Origin: a virus
IMG/VR virus record: IMGVR_UViG_3300031857_000458
Location: 1 to 40,722 of that record
Direction: 5' to 3' (one strand)
Length of the DNA stretch: 40,722 nt
Below the pieces are notes generated by a model, which made no database searches, had not been told where the DNA came from, and worked only from the letters and a program-made list of their open reading frames with translations. Below are positions 15,885-32,326 of this stretch, piece by piece. Numbering within the stretch: the stretch's first letter is position 1; each line of letters opens with the position of its first letter. Both the position numbers and the translations under genes were made by a program.

Positions 15885-16093
15885 TGTTAGTTGATACAAA
15901 TCATCCAGGGTATGTAAAAGATACTGACTCTGGCGTTATCATAAATAACAATGAAGAAGAATATAAGAAGTTCTTAGCTGCAAGAGAAGCAAGCAAAAGA
16001 AACAACAGTTTGTGCAAGAGAATGAGTGAAGTAGAACATGATCTCCGTGATATCAAACATCTTTTGCAGCAGTTAATACACAGGAATAATTAA
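15884..16093 (+). CDS. Small coiled-coil protein of unknown role
   Basis: 69 residues, joined to both neighbours by one-base TAATG overlaps, which supports it being a real gene. The N-terminal half (HPGYVKDTDSGVIINNNEEE followed by YKKFLAARE) resembles short proteins found in tail clusters of marine T4-like phages. The C-terminal third (SEVEHDLRDIKHLLQQLI) has a heptad pattern expected to form a coiled coil. It is charged, with one Cys (near residue 44), and has no membrane segment or signal peptide. It could be a minor virion component or assembly factor. A second small coiled-coil protein with a similar position after a fibre gene is encoded at 23811-24020. Confidence 0.7.
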   Translation: MLVDTNHPGYVKDTDSGVIINNNEEEYKKFLAAREASKRNNSLCKRMSEVEHDLRDIKHLLQQLIHRNN

Positions 16094-18393
16094 TGGCAAG
16101 ATTAGTAGCTAACGTTGATATCATTACTGATAGCTTTGAAGTCTGGTTACTTCAGACTAACGAGCTGCTGAATGCCTTCTCGACCGAAATCATTACTGCA
16201 AATACAACCACTGCTAACACTGGTAACTCAACCATTAGCCGCACATCACAACTGTGGGGTACTTTTGGCGCAAATACTGTTGCTGTATCGACAGCTCTTC
16301 GCGGTGGTAACGTAGCAACTGGTAATTCTGCTAACCTAGTTATTACATCAAATGCTACAGCTTATGTTGCCGCGGACGCTGGTATTCGTGTTCTTGCTGG
16401 TAACAGCACTTCGAACAGCTACCTGAATCCAGTTGGTGTTTACCTTGGCTTAGGATCTGCTAATTCCTTTGTAAACAGTAGTCTGATTATAACACAATCT
16501 AGCAGTACTGTCAACACGAATATTTCACCTAGCCGCATTCAAATTGCAAATAGTACATCAACAGCTAACATTACACCAATTGCTTTCAATACTGGTTTGT
16601 TTGTTGGTAACACTACGGTTGTAGCTGTCGGTGCAAATGTTTATGCAAATGCCGATACTGTCTTTGTTGGTAACAGTTCATTCGACAGCAAGTTTGGAAA
16701 TGGTTCATGGACTGGTGTTGCTAATCTAGTAATTACACCAACCAACTACCTGACAATTTCTGGTGCTGCTAATGTAACATCAAATGCTAACTTTGCTAAC
16801 ACCATTGCTGTAACTGGTAACGCCACGTTTTCAAATACAATTGTTGTCACAGGTAATGCTACACTATCGAATACGTTGATCGTAACTGGTAATACAACAT
16901 TATCAAATACAGTTGATGTTACAGGCGCTGCAACACTTTCAAATACTCTAACTGTATCTGGTCTAACAAATGCTGCTGGTAACCTAAACACACCAACAGC
17001 AAATGCTTCAACCGCAGTCAATGTTGGTGCTAACGTTAACCTGACCGCTGCTAGAATCAATATCGGTAACTCATCTGTAAATACAGCGATTACTTCTACT
17101 GCGATTGATACAGACGGAACACTCGATGTTCTTGGTGCAACAACACTTTCAAATACTCTGACAGTCGTTGGTCTTGCAAATGCTTCTGGTGGATTAAATA
17201 CCACAACTGCCAATGCTTCTTCTGGCGTGAATGTAGGTGCCAATGTCAATCTAACAGCAACACGTATTAATGTTGGCAATAGCTCGGTTAATACCTTTAT
17301 TACATCGACTTCTATCGAAACAGATGGTACTCTAACAGTTCTCGGTGTAACATCTCTTGCCAATACGCTGGATGTTGCTGGTCTTGCATCGTTAAATGCA
17401 GCACTGAATACCACAACTGCGAATGCTTCGGTTGCTGTCAATGTTGGTGCTAACGTCAATCTGACAACAACGCGCTTTAATGTTGGTAACTCATCAGTCA
17501 ATACATTCATTACTTCCACTGCAATTGAGACAGATGGTACCCTGACAGTACTTGGTGCAACATCATTAGCAAATACCCTGGCAGTAACAGGCAATACAAC
17601 TCTTTCAAATACTCTTGCGGTGACCGGAGCAGCAAATCTTGCTAGCACACTCGGTGTAGTTGGTGCAGTTACTTTATCAAATACAATTACTGTAACTGGT
17701 AATGCTACATTCTCAAATACAATTAGTGTTACTGGTCTGGCAACACTTGGTGCTCTAAATGCTACAACTGCAAATGCCACTGCAATCAATGTTGGTGCTA
17801 ACGTCAATCTGACAACAACACGTTTCAATGTTGGTAACAGTTCAGTTAATACATTTATTACGTCAACAGCAATCGAAACAGATGGTACTCTGACAGTACT
17901 CGGTGCAACCTCGCTTGCTAATACCATTGCTGTTACAGGTAATGCTACATTCTCAAATACACTAAGCATAACAGGTGCTGCAAATGCACTTAGCACTCTT
18001 GGTGTAGCTGGACCAGCTACATTAGCAAGTTCTCTGTCTGTTGGTGGTGCAACAACATTCCAAACAGACTATGTAGTTGATGTGTCTGCAAACGCTGACA
18101 TTGGTTCAACTGTTGGTGCTGTTCTTGTTTACAGATTCCCGAAAGCAACTTACTCATCAGCTAAGTTTGAAGTTCAGGTAAAGAATGGTAATACACAACT
18201 TTCTGAATTGGTCCTTGCTCATGATGGTGGTTTGTCGGCATTCGTAACCACATATGGTACTGTTGCTTCGAATGGTGGAGCATCTCCACTCGGAACATTT
18301 ACTGCAAATGCTGATACTTCGAATGTGAATCTATATCTTGTACAAACAGTTGCAAACTCGGCTGTCAAAGTCGTAGCTCATCTAATTAAGTAA
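16093..18393 (+). CDS. Tandem-repeat tail fibre protein
   Basis: 766 residues of low-complexity Asn/Thr/Ser/Ala/Val sequence expected to fold as a trimeric or solenoid beta fibre. The N-terminus (about residues 1-90, with [20 protein letters not shown]) is non-repetitive and probably the virion attachment part. The middle is made of short [11 protein letters not shown]-type units and four longer units with the core [36 protein letters not shown]. The last 110 residues (from [13 protein letters not shown], with [18 protein letters not shown]) form a separate non-repetitive domain, probably the folding cap or tip. The start follows AGGA and overlaps the upstream stop (TAATG). It is a candidate receptor-binding or fibre-shaft protein. 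Confidence 0.75.
16998..17925 (+). repeat. Protein-level tandem repeats in fibre gene
   Basis: Four long repeat units with the core NVGANVNLT...[14 protein letters not shown]...[16 protein letters not shown] start near 16998, 17209, 17416 and 17767. Units three and four encode the same 46 residues (17440-17577 and 17788-17925) but differ at 17 codons, all synonymous by my alignment. Shorter VTGNxTxSNT units lie between and before them. Confidence 0.85.
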
Positions 18394-23810: not shown

Positions 23811-24020
23811 ATGGAAGCTGAATTTGTTAATGAGTATATTAATCGATTGACGATGAATCTACATGAATCCGTAAGTAAAACCGTTCTACATGAAACAAGG
23901 CTGGCGATACTCGAAAAGAGTTACGCCAGCCTCCAAACTGAACACCAAAAAGTTTTACTAGAATTAGAGCGTCTTAAGAAGAAACCTTCAAAACAGAATT
24001 TAGATTCTACCGACGCCTAA
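23811..24020 (+). CDS. Small coiled-coil protein
   Basis: 69 residues from ATG 23811; an in-frame upstream ATG at 23778 lies inside the fibre gene and is less likely. The middle (ETRLAILEKSYASLQTEHQK, then VLLELERLKKK) has regular hydrophobic spacing typical of a coiled coil; the end is Lys-rich. It is the last gene of this plus-strand block, and its last 14 bases overlap the end of the convergent minus-strand gene (24007-24020). A strong hairpin (23899-23931) lies inside the coding sequence. By position and type it parallels the 69-aa gene at 15884. No clear SD is seen just before the ATG (TTCTAATATT), so translation may depend on coupling to the fibre gene stop. Confidence 0.6.
   Translation: MEAEFVNEYINRLTMNLHESVSKTVLHETRLAILEKSYASLQTEHQKVLLELERLKKKPSKQNLDSTDA
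23899..23931 (-). terminator. Strong hairpin, possible terminator of the minus-strand operon
   Basis: Arms GGCTGGCG (23899-23906) and CGCCAGCC (23924-23931) pair perfectly over eight bases; inside, ACTC/GAGT adds four pairs after a 2x2 mismatch, closing a GAAAA-type loop. Read on the minus strand, it lies 76-108 bases past the stop of the FkbM fusion gene and is followed by TTGTTTC, a weak T-run. On the plus strand no T-run follows. It may stop minus-strand transcripts from running against the fibre genes. Confidence 0.45.
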
Positions 24021-25254
24021 AGTGATAGTCACCATCCACGTTACCAATATGGATCTGACTCACTAGTTCAAATCCCATCTCGTCGAGATATTCGATCACT
24101 ACATCTTTTTGTGGTGCACCTAGGTTGTATTCCTGGTGTTGCATTTCAATAATGATGTCTTGACATTTTGATAGTGTCTCTTGCCCACCGACAAGAATTA
24201 GTAACTCTGCACCCTGCACATCAATCTTGACAAGGTCTGGCTTCGGCCAGCCTTTTTCTGATGCAATGTCGTCGAGCGATCTCATCTTCTTATCGACTGC
24301 GTGTTCCTCAGTAAAGAACTGAGTATCTTCCTTAAAGACTGAGTTGCCAGCAGGATCCATTGGATTCTCGTAGTACTTTACCCATCGAGTAAAGTCTCCG
24401 ACTGGACCATCACAGTAATAATCAAGACCGGATTCCTTGTAAAGAAACTCTGCATGATTCATTGCATCAAACATAACGATCTTTGAATCTGGCCAGATCT
24501 TCTTAGCTTCTTTGGTCCAGTGCATTACACAAGCCCCAATATCGTAGATCACCTTTGGCTCTACGCCTTCTAGCATCATGCCATTGAGATAATCAACATG
24601 ATCTTTTGGCTGGTCGTCTCGCAGTGACAACTCTCGAAGTCTTGCCTCTACTAGATTGACTTCTGGCAATTGTACGTGCATAGTCGTAGAACCGATGTGG
24701 CCACAACGAACTGACGGATCACACCAAAGTTTAAATCCTTTAGTGATTGCCTTCTTACAGAAATCTGTATCTTCGCTGATCGTATTACCGTGATCGAGAG
24801 CAGGATGATACTCGAACTGTGGATAACCTACACCGGCCAGAACTTCTTTCTTAACAAGCACACAGCCAAAGCCACAACCACCAATACCAACTAGATTCCA
24901 GTTCTTTGCATAGAGATCTTCGGTTGTCATACGTGTACCGAACGGCTCGTAGATCTCAAGCATCTGTGGTTCAAGTCTCTGACGATACACACCAGAAACC
25001 AGATCCTGATCATGAGCAAGGAGTTTTTTCAGCGTATCTGGTGGAAACGTAATGTCATGATCGACCGAGAACAAATAGTCGTAATCACGTACAACCCAGT
25101 CTGCAATCAAGTTACGAACCTGATCTACTCGGTATCCATAGAAGTATTGAAAGGTTGTTTCATATCCTTCAGGAACTTCCAAGTCATAGATCGACTTAAA
25201 GGTCTCTGCTTCGATATAACGAGCAGTAGGAATGGCAATTAAGATTTTTTTCAT
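24007..25254 (-). CDS. Fused GT2-type glycosyltransferase and FkbM methyltransferase
   Basis: 415 residues with two enzyme domains. Residues 1-195 are GT-A-like: RVDQVRNLIADW (42-53), the DxD metal/nucleotide-sugar site in SVDHDITFPPD (63-73), and SEDTDFCKKA (160-169), which fits the ED acid motif of GT2 enzymes. Residues 232-415 are an FkbM-type methyltransferase: VIYDIGA (235-241) as SAM motif I and the hallmark KIDVQGAELL (343-352). The likely job is adding a sugar from a nucleotide donor and O-methylating it or a neighbouring sugar. It is the second gene of a two-gene minus-strand operon, overlapping the GT4-GT2 gene by four bases, and it converges on a plus-strand gene with a 14-base overlap. 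The acceptor is unknown: fibre proteins or host surface glycan. Confidence 0.82.
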   Translation of the reverse strand: MKKILIAIPTARYIEAETFKSIYDLEVPEGYETTFQYFYGYRVDQVRNLIADWVVRDYDYLFSVDHDITFPPDTLKKLLAHDQDLVSGVYRQRLEPQMLEIYEPFGTRMTTEDLYAKNWNLVGIGGCGFGCVLVKKEVLAGVGYPQFEYHPALDHGNTISEDTDFCKKAITKGFKLWCDPSVRCGHIGSTTMHVQLPEVNLVEARLRELSLRDDQPKDHVDYLNGMMLEGVEPKVIYDIGACVMHWTKEAKKIWPDSKIVMFDAMNHAEFLYKESGLDYYCDGPVGDFTRWVKYYENPMDPAGNSVFKEDTQFFTEEHAVDKKMRSLDDIASEKGWPKPDLVKIDVQGAELLILVGGQETLSKCQDIIIEMQHQEYNLGAPQKDVVIEYLDEMGFELVSQIHIGNVDGDYHFRRR

Positions 25255-27290
25255 AGCGGTCTGAGATCAATCTGTCCTGGAAAGAATGGAGAATTATTCA
25301 ATATTTTTGCTGCAGTCTTATTTTGTTCTTCTGCATTTACTTTGTAGTCATTAAGTGGATTCAGATCGTTATAGTTAACTACAATATCTGTTACGCACAC
25401 AACTTTGTTCGGATCTGCTCGTTCAATTAAATAATAAAACAATGAAGTATCACCGCCTGCTCTTGGCCATTTTCCATCAATCTGCAAATCTTCTTTTGTC
25501 AAGTTTTTAACTAACGAAGATTTAAACGTACGCAGGTGCGTGTATGGCATGTTCCAATTGAACCTGTATGAACGATAGAATTTGTTTGCCTTAATTTCAG
25601 GCGGATATTCCTGAGCAATCAGCGGAATGTTGTCTGCCATAGACCAACACGATCCGTATGTAAACTCAGCATCTTCGTGATAAAGGTTGTTGTACATATG
25701 GAAGATAGTGGGATCGTTGACAAGTGAATCATCACCATCAAGAAGCATGATATACTGTTCTGTTATCAATTGCTTGATCGTATCATAGTGATTTGCAACA
25801 GCGCCAAGATTCTCTTCATTTTGTAAAACAGTAAAGTGCCAACGTTGCCATTGTGGAAGCGAGTTGATGGTTTCCCTGGCGACCTTTACTGTATTATCTG
25901 TTGAGTAATCATCAATAATATACATGTGATAGTCAGTATAGTCTTGCGCGGCTACAGATCGAATACACCTTTCAATGTATGCTTCAGCATTATATACAGG
26001 CGTAATAACTGCTATAGATTTTTCATCTGAGATCTTAACTGGTTGGAGTTCCTCTGCATTCAAGAACCGGCGGTTGAATACTTTGCGAACCTTATTGTTG
26101 ATCTTCGTAACCTTGCGATACTCATCAACAGGCAAGTATTCACCAAGTTTCTTATACAGATGTTGTTTCCACTGAAGAGCAACCGTATCCCAAGTACAAA
26201 TGTCTTTGACCTGATTGCAAGCGTACATCTTCTGTTGATGCAGATAAGGAGTATTATATGCTTCTACGACCTTGTCAACAAACAAATTCACCTGTTGTTC
26301 CTGGTTCAGCCATTGCATTGCCCAGTTCGGTTCAACAGGATACTTGATCTTCCATGATGCCAGATCAATTGCAGTCTCTTCAAGTGCACCGAACTGACAT
26401 GTGATGAGTGGTACATTATGAGCCAGAGCTTCAAGTGTTGAGATGCCAAACGTCTCTGGGAAACCTACAGGGTAAATCATGTAGGATGCTTTGCGTAGGA
26501 TATCTGAGATCTCTTGTTGAGTAATTACACCGGTGAATTCAATGTCTCCACCATAGTGCATCATAAGATCAGTCCAGTCTTTTTGTTGCTGGTCTGGACC
26601 TGCCGCTTCACGAAACTTATAATAGCCACCGACAATCTTGAGCTTTGCATCTGGAATACGGCGCTTAACTTCTGGCCAGATCTGTTTGACAAGAGGAATC
26701 ATTCCCTTGGTCACAGATGCATTGAAGACAAAAAGGTTCGGATCTTTCTCACGAATATCAATCCAACCTGGATTCATATTGCCAATACCGTTACGAGTCA
26801 GGAAGATGTGATTCTTTAGAACATCATAGTTACGACGGAATCCATGATCGCAGTGAGTTACGTATCCAGTGTGCCAGTCTGAGAGAGTAAAGATTTCATT
26901 CAGTTTGCCAATATTAATCAAATACTCGATCTGATCATCGCCCTCGCAGAACGTATCATGCATCCAAAGGCAAACGTGTTTAGAATTGGCTATAATTGGC
27001 CAGTCTTCTGCAATGGGTTTTACGGACCGAGATACGATACAGACATCATATGTTTTACGGTTTGACTTGGGTCCATCGCCAGCTACAGGGCGATAATTAA
27101 CACCATTATACAATCCCCCGCGCGAGTCATCCGAAACACAATCATTAAAGACTGTAACATCAAAGCCTATTTTGGCAAGTTCTTCTGACATGCGAATTAC
27201 GGCCGATTCGGATCCTCCAAGTCCTCTCTTTGAGAGAGTGGATCCGTCATAGGTTAGGCCGAGTGTATCTATAAAAGCAATCTTCATCAT
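25251..27290 (-). CDS. Fused GT4 and GT2 glycosyltransferase
   Basis: 679 residues, two complete-looking glycosyltransferases. Residues 1-380 are GT4 (GT-B fold): KRGLGGSESA at 21-30, and PETFGISTLEA at 278-288 holding the EX7E donor-binding motif (E279, E287). Residues 424-660 are GT2 (GT-A fold): IAVITPVYNAEAYIERCIRS, IIDDYSTDNT near 458, and LLDGDDS (516-522) as the metal-binding DxD-type site. Such bidomain enzymes make two successive linkages or polymerise short glycans. The chosen start is ATG 27290 (MMK); ATG 27287 is the alternative. There is no SD, and a consensus sigma70 promoter places the transcript start at about this ATG. It overlaps the downstream gene by four bases. Substrates cannot be read from the sequence. 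Confidence 0.85.
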   Translation of the reverse strand: MMKIAFIDTLGLTYDGSTLSKRGLGGSESAVIRMSEELAKIGFDVTVFNDCVSDDSRGGLYNGVNYRPVAGDGPKSNRKTYDVCIVSRSVKPIAEDWPIIANSKHVCLWMHDTFCEGDDQIEYLINIGKLNEIFTLSDWHTGYVTHCDHGFRRNYDVLKNHIFLTRNGIGNMNPGWIDIREKDPNLFVFNASVTKGMIPLVKQIWPEVKRRIPDAKLKIVGGYYKFREAAGPDQQQKDWTDLMMHYGGDIEFTGVITQQEISDILRKASYMIYPVGFPETFGISTLEALAHNVPLITCQFGALEETAIDLASWKIKYPVEPNWAMQWLNQEQQVNLFVDKVVEAYNTPYLHQQKMYACNQVKDICTWDTVALQWKQHLYKKLGEYLPVDEYRKVTKINNKVRKVFNRRFLNAEELQPVKISDEKSIAVITPVYNAEAYIERCIRSVAAQDYTDYHMYIIDDYSTDNTVKVARETINSLPQWQRWHFTVLQNEENLGAVANHYDTIKQLITEQYIMLLDGDDSLVNDPTIFHMYNNLYHEDAEFTYGSCWSMADNIPLIAQEYPPEIKANKFYRSYRFNWNMPYTHLRTFKSSLVKNLTKEDLQIDGKWPRAGGDTSLFYYLIERADPNKVVCVTDIVVNYNDLNPLNDYKVNAEEQNKTAAKILNNSPFFPGQIDLRPL

Positions 27291-27296
27291 AGTTCC

Positions 27297-27325
27297 ATTA
27301 TAAATAAAAACAATAATACTGTCAA
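27297..27325 (-). promoter_or_regulatory. Consensus sigma70 promoter for the glycosyltransferase operon
   Basis: On the minus strand, TTGACA (27325-27320), a 17-base spacer and TATAAT (27302-27297) form an exact host housekeeping promoter. The TATAAT ends six bases before the first ATG of the GT4-GT2 gene, so the transcript should begin at or beside that AUG. The -35 region overlaps a short inverted repeat (27321-27338, seven paired positions around AAAT) that could be an operator. This is typical of early phage genes read by unmodified host polymerase. Confidence 0.75.
27299..27306 (+). promoter_or_regulatory. T4-type late promoter, exact consensus
   Basis: TATAAATA on the plus strand, 72 bases before the ATG of the 1651-aa fibre gene; the predicted start is near 27312. 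Four bases of the box (27299-27302) are also part of the minus-strand sigma70 -10 element. The leader of about 59 bases contains the 27321-27338 inverted repeat and the GGGGAG ribosome site (27361-27366). Confidence 0.75.
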
Positions 27326-27370
27326 CTAAATAGTTGGCTTACAAGATATATATCTGCTTTGGGGAGCCAC

Positions 27371-30300
27371 ATGGCAAACAATAAGATTCAGTTTAAGCGC
27401 ACGACTATTTCTGGTCGTACACCGAACACTACAAACTCTGGCAATACTTCTTATATCGATGCCGGCGAATTTGCGGTTAATCTGACTGACCAAAAGGTCT
27501 ACTCCTCAAACGGATCTGTCGCATTCGAAGTCGGTGCGAATCTAGCTTCTCTCAATGTAGGTGGTAACGTCACTATTGGCGGTAACCTTCAAGTTACCGG
27601 CACTTCTATTAGTATCTCTGGTAATAACCTATCGATTACTGATAGTATGTTGTACCTGAACCAGGGTGTTCTTGCTACAATTACAAACGTTTCTGGTAAC
27701 GGTTCTGTTGTTACATTCACTGCCAATAATAACTATGCTTCCGGTTGGGATGTATATGTTACTGCGGTGGATCCAAGTTCTTATAATGGAACTTACACAA
27801 ATATTCTTACAGCAAATGCTACACACTTTACTGTGGCAAATACAAATACGGCGACTTATGTTTCCGGTGGTACTGCTCGTGGTAAGACAGATATCAATCC
27901 AGACATTGGTTTTGCTGCCGGATATAACGACGGTACGTATCATCACACCGGATTCTTCCGTGATGCAACCGATGGCCGATACAAAGTTTTTGATAGCTAT
28001 CTTCCAGAGCCAGACACTTCACCATTTATCGACACATCAAATGCCAGCTTTAAGATTGCCGACTTCCAGGCAAATACACTCTATGCAAATTCAATCTATG
28101 CAAATGGCAGCTTAGGTACTGCTGGCCAAGGTCTTGTATCAAACGGATCTGCAGTATATTGGTCAAACAATCCAGGTTATACCGGTTCGGCCGGCCCGCA
28201 AGGCACAACCGGCTTTACTGGGTCGATCGGTGCTCAGGGACCTCAAGGTGCAATTGGATTTACAGGATCACGAGGCACAACCGGCTTTACTGGTTCTGTA
28301 GGTGCACAAGGACCAATTGGTTTTACAGGATCTACTGGTGCACAAGGGCCAATCGGCTTTACTGGTTCTGTAGGTGCACAAGGACCACAGGGTGCGACCG
28401 GCCCGCAAGGTCCTATTGGCTTTACCGGTTCAACCGGCCCACAAGGTGCACAAGGTCCAATTGGCTTTACAGGTTCACAAGGAACTACAGGATTCACTGG
28501 TTCTGTAGGTGCGCAGGGTTCGCAGGGTAATATTGGTTTTACTGGTTCTGCTGGCGCAACTGGTGCTCAAGGACCGATTGGATTTACTGGTTCTACTGGC
28601 GCGCAAGGTGCTCAAGGTCCTATTGGATTTACAGGTTCATGGGGTGGAACAGCCTATGCTAACGTAGATATGAATACGTTTAGTATTACTAATGCTGGTA
28701 CTCTTAGCGCGGTTGATCTGACACTTAGCGGTAACTTAACTGTATCTGGCACAAGAACTTATGTCAACACGACGACTTTAGATGTCGGTGATAATATTGT
28801 AACCCTCAATGCTGATCTTGGAGCGGCTGCACCTACGCAAAACGCCGGTCTTGAGATCATGCGTGGTACATCTGCAAACGTACAATTCATTTGGGATGAA
28901 ACAAACGATCGCTGGACAACTAATGGACAACCATTATCTATCTCATCACTTGTAGCAGCTGGTGCAGCGTCTGGTATTACAACATTGGATGCTGGCAATA
29001 CTACAATCACTGGGTTTGTAAATGCTACATCTTCTGTCAATGCTGCATCTCACACAGTTGGCACTAGCTTCATTGCCAATGCAACAGGTACCACAACTAA
29101 TGTAGCTTCATGGGGTTCAACCTTTAGAGCATCTAATAGTACTAACTTTTCAGGTATTAAATGGGAGGATACCGGTGGTACTATTAGAGCAGGCTTGTAT
29201 AGATATGATAATAATAACTTAACCATATCGATATATGATAATACTGGTACATTCCAGGCGGCTCCTATTATTATTTCGGCAACCACCGGCACAGTTACAT
29301 TATCAAGGCTTGCAACCACCAACGGTACATTTTCTGGAGCAGTATCTGGAATTACTACACTCGCTGCTGGTAATACAACCATTACCGGCTTTGCTAACGT
29401 TTCTACTACTTTGCAGGTTGATGGTATTGCAACATTTAATGCTAATGTGAATCTTAATGCTGCTGACCATCTAATCTTAAGTTCGACATCAGGTATTTCG
29501 GCCAATGGAACGCTTGGTACTTCTGGTCAAGCCCTAATATCTAATGGTAGTGCTGTATTCTGGTCGAACAATCCTGGTTATACAGGATCTACAGGACCGC
29601 AGGGAACAACTGGCTTTACTGGTTCTGCTGGTGCAACTGGTCCGCAAGGACCTATTGGTTTTACAGGATCTGTTGGTGCTCAAGGTCCAACCGGTCCTCA
29701 AGGACCACAGGGAACAGCCGGCTTTACAGGATCTCAAGGTCAAATTGGTCCTCAGGGTGTTACAGGACCACAAGGCACACCAGGATTTACAGGATCAACT
29801 GGTCCAACAGGGCCACAAGGACCGATCGGATTTACAGGATCAACTGGTCCAACAGGGCCACAAGGTCCTATTGGATTCACTGGATCTGCCGGCGCAACGG
29901 GTCCTACAGGTCCTACAGGTCCACAGGGACCAATCGGCTTTACAGGATCTCAAGGTCCTATTGGCTTTACCGGTTCAACCGGCCCTCAAGGTGCACAAGG
30001 ACCAATTGGCTTCACTGGTTCACGTGGTGCAACCGGTTTCACTGGCTCAACTGGGCCGACAGGACCACAGGGACCAATCGGTTTCACTGGTTCAACTGGA
30101 CCTCAAGGTGCCCAAGGACCAATAGGATTTACTGGTTCTGTTGGTCCAACCGGCCCAACCGGTCCTACTGGACCGCAGGGACCAATTGGATTCACGGGTT
30201 CTGCTGGTGCGACCGGACCTACAGGTCCAACTGGGCCACAAGGTCCTATTGGATTTACTGGATCTACCGGGCCGACCGGTCCTCAGGGTCCAATCGGTTT

Positions 30301-32326
30301 CACGGGGTCAATTGGTCCAACCGGTCCTCAAGGTCCTATTGGATTTACTGGATCACGTGGTGCAACAGGTTTCACCGGTTCTGTTGGTCCAACCGGTCCT
30401 ACAGGCCCAACGGGTCCTCAAGGACCTATCGGATTTACTGGTAGCCAAGGTGCTCAAGGTGCACAGGGTGCAACTGGACCAACTGGTCCACAAGGACCAA
30501 TCGGTTTTACTGGTTCTGCTGGTGCAACTGGCCCGCAAGGTGCTCAGGGTGCCACCGGTCCGCAGGGACCAATTGGCTTCACTGGTTCACGTGGCGCAAC
30601 TGGTTTTACTGGTTCTGCTGGTGCAACTGGGCCGACTGGACCGCAGGGTGCTCAAGGACCAATCGGTTTTACTGGTTCCACAGGACTTACAAGCGGCACT
30701 CAAACTATTGATGGTCTAAAAACCTTTAGTAGTCGCGCTACATTTTCTGATGGTATGCGAATTGGTCCAACTCCCGGCGATCCAAATGCGTTTATAATAA
30801 CACGCACAATGCCGACCGGCGACCCTAACGTTGGCAACGAAGCTACCGAACTTTTACTATTCCATGCAAACGACCCTGCAAATGGATCTGGCCCAGACTT
30901 TATTACTCTTCGTGCCCCTGCCCTTCGTTTTCAAACTTATGATAACGCGGCTGTTGCTGATCCGGACTCAAGTGGTGGTTGGAATAATCGCCTTACTATT
31001 TCTCAGACAGGTGTTATTACATCCTCAGTTGATTTCCGTGCACCTATCTTCTATGATAGTGATAACACTGGTTATTACTTTAATGGTACTGGAGCGACTG
31101 CTTTAAGCTTAAATGGTAATATTACATTTGGCCCGTCAAACCCATATATTACTGCGTCAAGTTATATTCACTTTCCAGGAGGAGCGTATTTTAACTCCGG
31201 AACTGTATACATGGAGGCGAACCTAAAAGCAAGAGGCGGTGTGGGTAATGACACTGCAGCTGCATTAACTCTTACAGGTGGCACAGGTGGTTATACACAG
31301 ATTAACGGGTCAGCAAGATCGCCTATCTTCTACGACAGTGATAACACCGGTTACTACATGGATCCATTGGGAACAACTAACCTCCTTGGAAATCTATATG
31401 TAGCAAGAAATGGAGTATCTAACGACACATTTGGCGGCTTAGAACTTCGTGAATATTCTTATGCTGGTGCAGCAACCGGAGCAGCAAACGAAGCGCCGGG
31501 TGTTAACTTCCACTGGTCGGCGCGAGCAGCTGCAAGAATTTACATGAATTCGGGCGGTCACTTTGTATTTGGTGGCCAAAGCGATATTACAAATAATAGA
31601 AGAGATATTATCTTTGCTTCGGGATTCGCGGCAACACGTGTTGATGCTCCTATATTCTATGATAGTAATAACACTGCTTTTTATACAGACCCAAATAGTG
31701 CCTCTGTTATGTCTGGTTTGCGTTTAACTTCTAGCCTTGATCTTGTCACCAACGATGTTTATGGTTCATTCCGCGTATTTCGTAACGCAGCTACTTCTGG
31801 CGCTCTTGCAGATGGTATGTATATTGGTTATGGTAACGGAAACAGCGGCGTTACTAGAATTTATGGGGGTGGTTCTACAGGAACTCCCTTGATTAAGTAT
31901 TCCAACTACACATCAGAAGATAGCTCTTTCAGAGCACCTATCTTCTATGATCTTGACAACACCGCTTATTATGCCGACTTTAATACAACCGGCGACTCGA
32001 TCCGAGCAGCTGGTAATATTATCGCTTATTACTCTGATGATAGACTGAAGACAAAGTTTGGAAATATTACAAACGCCGTTGATAAAGTCCGCCAACTGAA
32101 CGGATTCTATTACGAGGCAAATGAGACTGCTCAGAAACTTGGATACAAGCCAAAGAGAGAAGTAGGTGTGTCTGCTCAGGAACTAGAAGCAGTATTGCCT
32201 GAGGTGGTCACAGACGCTCCAATCGGCCGCGGCTACTTGACTGTGGATTATGAGCGTATTGTTCCACTTCTAATCGAAGCTATCAAAGAGCTCAGTGCAG
32301 AAATTGAAGAGTTGAAAGCTAGATGA
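27371..32326 (+). CDS. Giant collagen-like fibre with S74 chaperone cap
   Basis: 1651 residues from ATG 27371, preceded by GGGGAG; a TTG at 27359 extends the frame but lies over the ribosome site. Order: Mtd-like N-terminus ([14 protein letters not shown], then [19 protein letters not shown]), a [14 protein letters not shown] domain shared with the 431-aa fibre, collagen block 1 (residues 269-424), a beta region, collagen block 2 (736-1107), four [13 protein letters not shown]-type repeats (DNA near 31037, 31316, 31645, 31931), and a C-terminal S74 intramolecular chaperone. S74 is marked by SDDRLK with Ser1555 and Lys1560, the expected self-cleavage dyad; cleavage would free about 97 residues. 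[14 protein letters not shown] and [19 protein letters not shown] complete the domain. It is a homotrimeric fibre, likely a host-recognition protein. Confidence 0.9.
28175..28642 (+). repeat. Collagen-like G-X-Y block 1 of the 1651-aa fibre (52 triplets)
   Basis: Uninterrupted G-X-Y coding of 156 residues, rich in GFTGS, GAQGPI and GPQ phrases. It is directly preceded by a [13 protein letters not shown] module. Confidence 0.9.
29576..30691 (+). repeat. Collagen-like G-X-Y block 2 of the 1651-aa fibre (124 triplets)
   Basis: 372 residues of uninterrupted G-X-Y, the longest collagen block in the window. The phrase [14 protein letters not shown] recurs many times with shuffled synonymous codons. 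Pro is almost always at X, Thr/Gln/Ser/Ile at Y; one GTP triplet near 29771 is an exception. [14 protein letters not shown] module precedes it. Confidence 0.9.

Follow-up and report, generated by a model that had tools for sequence, protein, structure and literature searches.

The window, by which we mean the whole stretch of DNA analysed here, is a 40.7-kb virus record (40,722 nt), a fragment of a phage represented by environmental DNA only. Gene annotation assigns it to a T4-like myovirus, of which it spans the baseplate and fibre region. Its gp6-like baseplate protein has its closest annotated relative in Caulobacter phage Cr30 (35% identity), and no close DNA match to the window was found among annotated phages. 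The junction studied here separates a minus-strand operon, encoding a glycosyltransferase (GT) and an FkbM-type methyltransferase, from a plus-strand gene for a 1651-aa collagen-like fibre, a layout that agrees with a preliminary description of this DNA. One small correction concerns the GT gene: its conserved start is the ATG at 27287, the codon after the ORF start at 27290. Rfam gave no match within the junction, whose features are the following.

24007-25254, minus strand: second gene of the operon, with an FkbM-type methyltransferase domain
25251-27287, minus strand: GT gene (678 aa), with Glycos_transf_1-type and Glycos_transf_2 domains; start MKIAFID
27293-27296, minus strand: GGAA directly after the -10 hexamer, putatively a discriminator, or a Shine-Dalgarno sequence absent from the predicted transcript
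27297-27302, minus strand: -10 hexamer TATAAT, exact; predicted transcript start ~27290
27299-27302, both strands: shared TATA core, self-complementary; an identical offset recurs at the gp43 junction in other phages
27299-27306, plus strand: T4-type late promoter box TATAAATA, exact; predicted transcript start ~27312
27320-27325, minus strand: -35 hexamer TTGACA of the GT operon, exact; TGTACA or TGTACT in several close relatives
27321-27338, plus strand: stem-loop GTCAACT-AAAT-AGTTGGC in the fibre leader, with covariation; its 5' arm holds most of the -35 box
27344-27355, plus strand: palindrome AGATATATATCT in the fibre leader; GATATATATC is invariant in 18 aligned relatives
27361-27366, plus strand: Shine-Dalgarno sequence GGGGAG of the fibre gene, read from the sequence
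27371-32326, plus strand: tail fibre gene (1651 aa), with collagen repeats and a Peptidase_S74 chaperone

Relatives of the GT (58-100% identity) are encoded by 80 IMG/VR contigs, so that the junction can be compared. We grouped these relatives, whose genes are simple ORF calls, into 38 distinct GT junctions (clusters), which are themselves interrelated, so that the counts given below overstate their independence.

Predicted promoter elements at the junction

The late box lies on the plus strand at 27299-27306, where direct reading and a scan both recovered the exact TATAAATA of the preliminary description. In the window this octamer occurs three times against 2.3 expected, always on the plus strand and 34, 72 and 48 nt upstream of plus-strand starts; the copy at the junction stands 72 nt before the fibre gene, a virion gene, as a late promoter would. 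In T4 late promoters the box occupies positions -13 to -6 (PMC1524935), which places the predicted fibre transcript start at 27312. The placement of the box upstream of starts is specific across the related contigs: 44 of 65 distinct sites fall 12-130 nt upstream of a start on the same strand, against 5-18% for six control octamers, which were permuted versions of the box and not shifted copies. It is also the most conserved element of the junction, being exact in 34 of the 38 clusters. With the Cr30 protein as query, gp55 homologues were detected in G002 and G003, two long relatives with the GT junction; none was found among the annotated genes of the window, a 40.7-kb fragment. CTAAATA was considered as an alternative late box and dropped (seven in the window, 6.6 expected). 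An extended late-box consensus was no more informative, the box being preceded by AT at 8/28 divergent and 3/16 tandem sites, with no clear difference between the two.

On the opposite strand, TTGACA, 17 bases and TATAAT run from 27325 to 27297, again exactly as first described and by the same two means. With a sigma70 site taken as -35 and -10 hexamers 16-18 bp apart, this one scores 12/12 with a 17-bp spacer and is the sole 12/12 match that the scan found in the 20-40 kb part of the window. Exact matches with a 17-bp spacer number two in the whole window, against 0.02 expected per shuffled window. The other, at 16486-16514 on the minus strand, lies antisense inside a 766-aa plus-strand coding gene (16093-18393), and is kept at 12/12 in L027 (82% identity) and at 11/12 in L018. 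We considered it as a real antisense promoter; its position inside coding sequence counts against this. Because this second exact match sits inside a coding gene, an exact match by itself is suggestive and not proof.

In the relatives, using a generic sigma70 scoring matrix, the best score toward the GT exceeded that of dinucleotide shuffles (p<0.05) in 16 of the 38 clusters, and toward the fibre in none of the 38. The string TATTTATAAT is retained in 22/38 clusters. Throughout the window's clade the -10 hexamer overlies the late box with an offset of -4, and nine bases separate it from the GT start codon (eight bases in L028). Farther relatives have good sigma70 sites at offsets +3 (L072), +6 (L071), +8 (L076), +13 (L061) and +23 (L074), with longer leaders, and L044, L052 and L055 have a weaker site at offset -33, below significance. 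That such sites vary in their offset from the late box is an argument for selection on the presence of a GT-directed sigma70-type promoter as such.

The two hexamers are nevertheless not conserved together. At least 5/6 of the -35 is kept in only 9 of the 22 clusters with an overlapped -10, and six close-relative clusters have TGTACA or TGTACT in its place. Within the window's clade, altered and intact -35 boxes are intermingled on the GT tree, and the overlap stays in place. In the clusters with a degraded -35, the sigma70 promoter may have little or no activity. Alignment of the junction in related phages, proposed in the preliminary description as a check that both boxes are kept, thus bears out the late box and not the -35. 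Close relatives have lost the -35 again and again and still have the genes, which is half of the outcome that the preliminary description named as refuting its reading. Overall, the relatives speak for both boxes: the late box and the bias of sigma70 sites toward the GT are what real promoters would leave, though the -35 box is not independently kept. Strong sigma70 sites were also sought in other regions of the long relatives; the picture was mixed and we made no use of it.

The predicted GT transcript is almost leaderless (~3 nt). This is odd, as the possible Shine-Dalgarno sequence GGAA, whose GG is conserved through nearly the whole close clade, would fall upstream of the predicted start. 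The true start may therefore lie further upstream. A distance of just nine bases between -10 and start codon is found both here (27297-27287, minus strand) and in the L400-type gp43 arrangement, so that near-leaderless mRNAs are predicted for two unrelated genes.

A covarying stem-loop in the fibre leader

The stem-loop at 27321-27338 would begin ~9 nt from the 5' end of the predicted fibre mRNA. In 18 aligned junctions, 97.6% of the cells pair, and 17 are double-change cells; these cells are not independent of one another. With the arms shifted by -3 to +2 columns no double-change cell was left, and with +3 there was one. The hairpin forms in the minimum free energy fold, and the leader of the window has a modest energy z-score (-1.5) that is weaker in relatives, so that support for the structure rests on covariation. 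Read in the fibre sense, the cells include 12 G.U and 2 A.C pairs, a balance that speaks for RNA structure in the fibre mRNA rather than for an antisense structure or an operator in the DNA. Where the arm changes, the -35 turns into TGTACA or TGTACT; a stem-loop constraining this DNA would account for the drift of the -35. In farther relatives, other palindromes, such as GGAATTATATAATTCC and CTCTATATAGAG, stand in place of GATATATATC.

The shared core and its recurrence at other phage genes

Bases 27299-27302 belong to both boxes, as direct reading confirms, and the two -10 elements thus oppose each other on opposite strands as in a bidirectional promoter. The predicted starts are 22 bp apart (a prediction only), and published bidirectional promoters fall into classes with start sites about 18, 10 or 23 bp apart. 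At 22 bp the two polymerases would be unable to bind together, so that the mutual exclusion put forward in the preliminary description stands, but it does not depend on the shared bases: judging from footprint size, simultaneous binding would be excluded at most of the spacings found in relatives. Sharing is hence not what would make a switch. Several farther relatives retain both elements with no base in common, and sharing of the TATA core is, on the predicted sites, one layout among several. Moreover, the two sides of known promoters with a shared -10 do not compete while activity is basal, and repression appears only if one direction is strongly activated (PMC12825309). These points together weaken the case for the hard switch by occlusion that had been proposed for this locus.

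Nor do the comparisons support the view that the layout is unusual. Viral contigs were scanned for the composite pattern, and among the matches listed the same layout is seen at unrelated gene pairs: the DNA polymerase gene gp43 facing either a secreted-type gene or a small gene of unknown function, a UvsW-like helicase gene, and an SbcD-like gene (gp47) facing a gp25-like baseplate gene. The control, in which TATAATAA replaced TATAAATA, did not prove to be rarer among the matches listed for the two patterns, and in T4-like loci it too was mostly noncoding. We therefore claim recurrence of the layout at unrelated junctions, as read from these sequences, and not enrichment of the composite.

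The gp43 junctions of other T4-like phages were surveyed in 60 clusters, fetched with two gp43 proteins from the scan; as these queries came from contigs bearing the overlap, the sample is weighted toward their close kin. Of the 60, 24 have a late box (TATTTATN) together with a sigma70 site scoring 10/12 or more. The offset is -4, that of the window, in 10 of these 24, in two arrangements, with 9 nt or 22-23 nt separating the -10 from the start, and takes values of +13 to +16 in 9, +22 to +26 in 4 and -42 in 1. L400, L406, L408, L410, L480, L484 and L487 have an exact sigma70-type gp43 promoter whose -10 overlaps the divergent late box at the window's offset.

Interpretation

We consider it probable that two divergent promoters, each recognised by a different sigma, overlap within these 29 bp and are put in temporal order by sigma replacement, with occlusion secondary. 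A host sigma70-type promoter would serve the small reversed GT/methyltransferase operon and a T4-type (gp55-class) late promoter the fibre gene. TATAAT and TATAAATA would share the TATA core because both hold this self-complementary tetramer, and the overlap would pack both promoters into the ~80-bp gap at no cost. The timing would most likely come from the sigma factor in place, sigma70 early and gp55 with the sliding clamp after replication, which is a likelier cause than occlusion. Occlusion would be a by-product, and after strong activation of the late promoter it may reduce any early transcription that is left. In T4, both DNA strands are transcribed at different times at several sites.

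The pair, if its elements are what they appear to be, is a dual-sigma variant of the known bidirectional-promoter layout. As in the bacterial bidirectional promoters described by Warman, Grainger and colleagues (PMC12825309), bases are common to the opposed -10 elements, the two orientations exclude each other and starts lie ~22-23 bp apart, here by prediction. In those promoters both directions are served by the host housekeeping polymerase, whereas here host sigma70 is predicted one way and a phage gp55-type sigma the other, and the two directions are predicted to be separated in time as well by the sigma factor present. Likewise, the exact TATAAATA, the A/T-rich downstream DNA and the downstream structural gene match T4 late promoters, which depend on gp55, gp33 and gp45 (PMC2988020, PMC1524935); unlike them, the box of the window is overlapped by a consensus sigma70 promoter on the other strand. 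The combined early and late promoters of RB49, S-PM2 and Syn9, T4-like phages without MotA, also have elements close together, but in the review that describes them (PMC2984593) these precede one and the same gene and are credited with middle expression, whereas here they are opposed and face different genes.

Only the late promoter might be functional, TATAAT on the minus strand being a by-product of an AT-preceded late box and TTGACA of the stem-loop arm. That the late box is the most conserved element, that TTGACA lies within the covarying arm and is repeatedly lost, and that ATTATAAATA also occurs at 3/16 late boxes without a divergent gene are all in keeping with this reading. We nonetheless find it somewhat unlikely: T4 late promoters lack any conserved upstream element, yet the AT before the box is fixed across the close clade; the far relatives L061, L071, L074 and L076 have sigma70-like promoters toward the GT that do not coincide with the late box; and the direction bias (16/38 against 0/38) points the same way.

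It is very unlikely that the shared -10 was selected as a hard switch, with the order of sugar enzymes early and fibre late imposed by occlusion itself. Besides the shared bases, the recurrence of the exact offset at gp43 junctions in two arrangements would suit such a switch, as would the repression of one side of known bidirectional promoters when the other is strongly activated (PMC12825309). Yet shared bases are unnecessary for occlusion, and both elements are kept without them in other relatives and at gp43 offsets of +13 to +26; the -35 decays in close relatives; and T4-type late transcription already requires gp55, gp33 and the sliding clamp (PMC2988020). A highly improbable alternative, in which the dyad over the -35 is an operator where a phage or host repressor shuts the early promoter, draws on the near-perfect dyad beside or over the -35 in many relatives, usually with a second one 19-24 bp off, but the spacing between dyads varies, a binding protein of fixed specificity would not tolerate the compensatory arm changes, and the 12 G.U against 2 A.C cells favour RNA from the fibre strand.

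Under the preferred reading of two promoters ordered by sigma replacement, a perfect consensus promoter can be partly the by-product of another constraint, here apparently an RNA stem-loop. If both promoters are active, the junction offers a simple natural case of one polymerase core with two sigma factors competing in opposite directions for one TATA core, and, since the layout recurs at the replication polymerase gene in further T4-like phages, the idea is open to testing by reanalysis of promoter maps from cultured T4-like phages. A much broader proposition, which we regard as quite unlikely to hold in full, is that a dual-sigma bidirectional promoter has arisen repeatedly in T4-like phages at early/late gene boundaries, where sigma70 and gp55 polymerases compete for one TATA core and late activation silences the early gene, with the same bases here also encoding a structured fibre leader and the early mRNA nearly leaderless.

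Two further observations concern the flanking genes. The GT reading frame is ~1300-1580 aa long in L041, L050, L044, L052, L057, L060, L066 and L070, compared with 678 aa in the window, which suggests that those of these eight relatives are fusions. In many relatives, the fibre start codon lies inside a small palindrome, for example GCCATATGGC or AGCCATATGGCT; the corresponding bases of the window are 27366-27376 on the plus strand, and the palindrome is clearer in L006 and L029.
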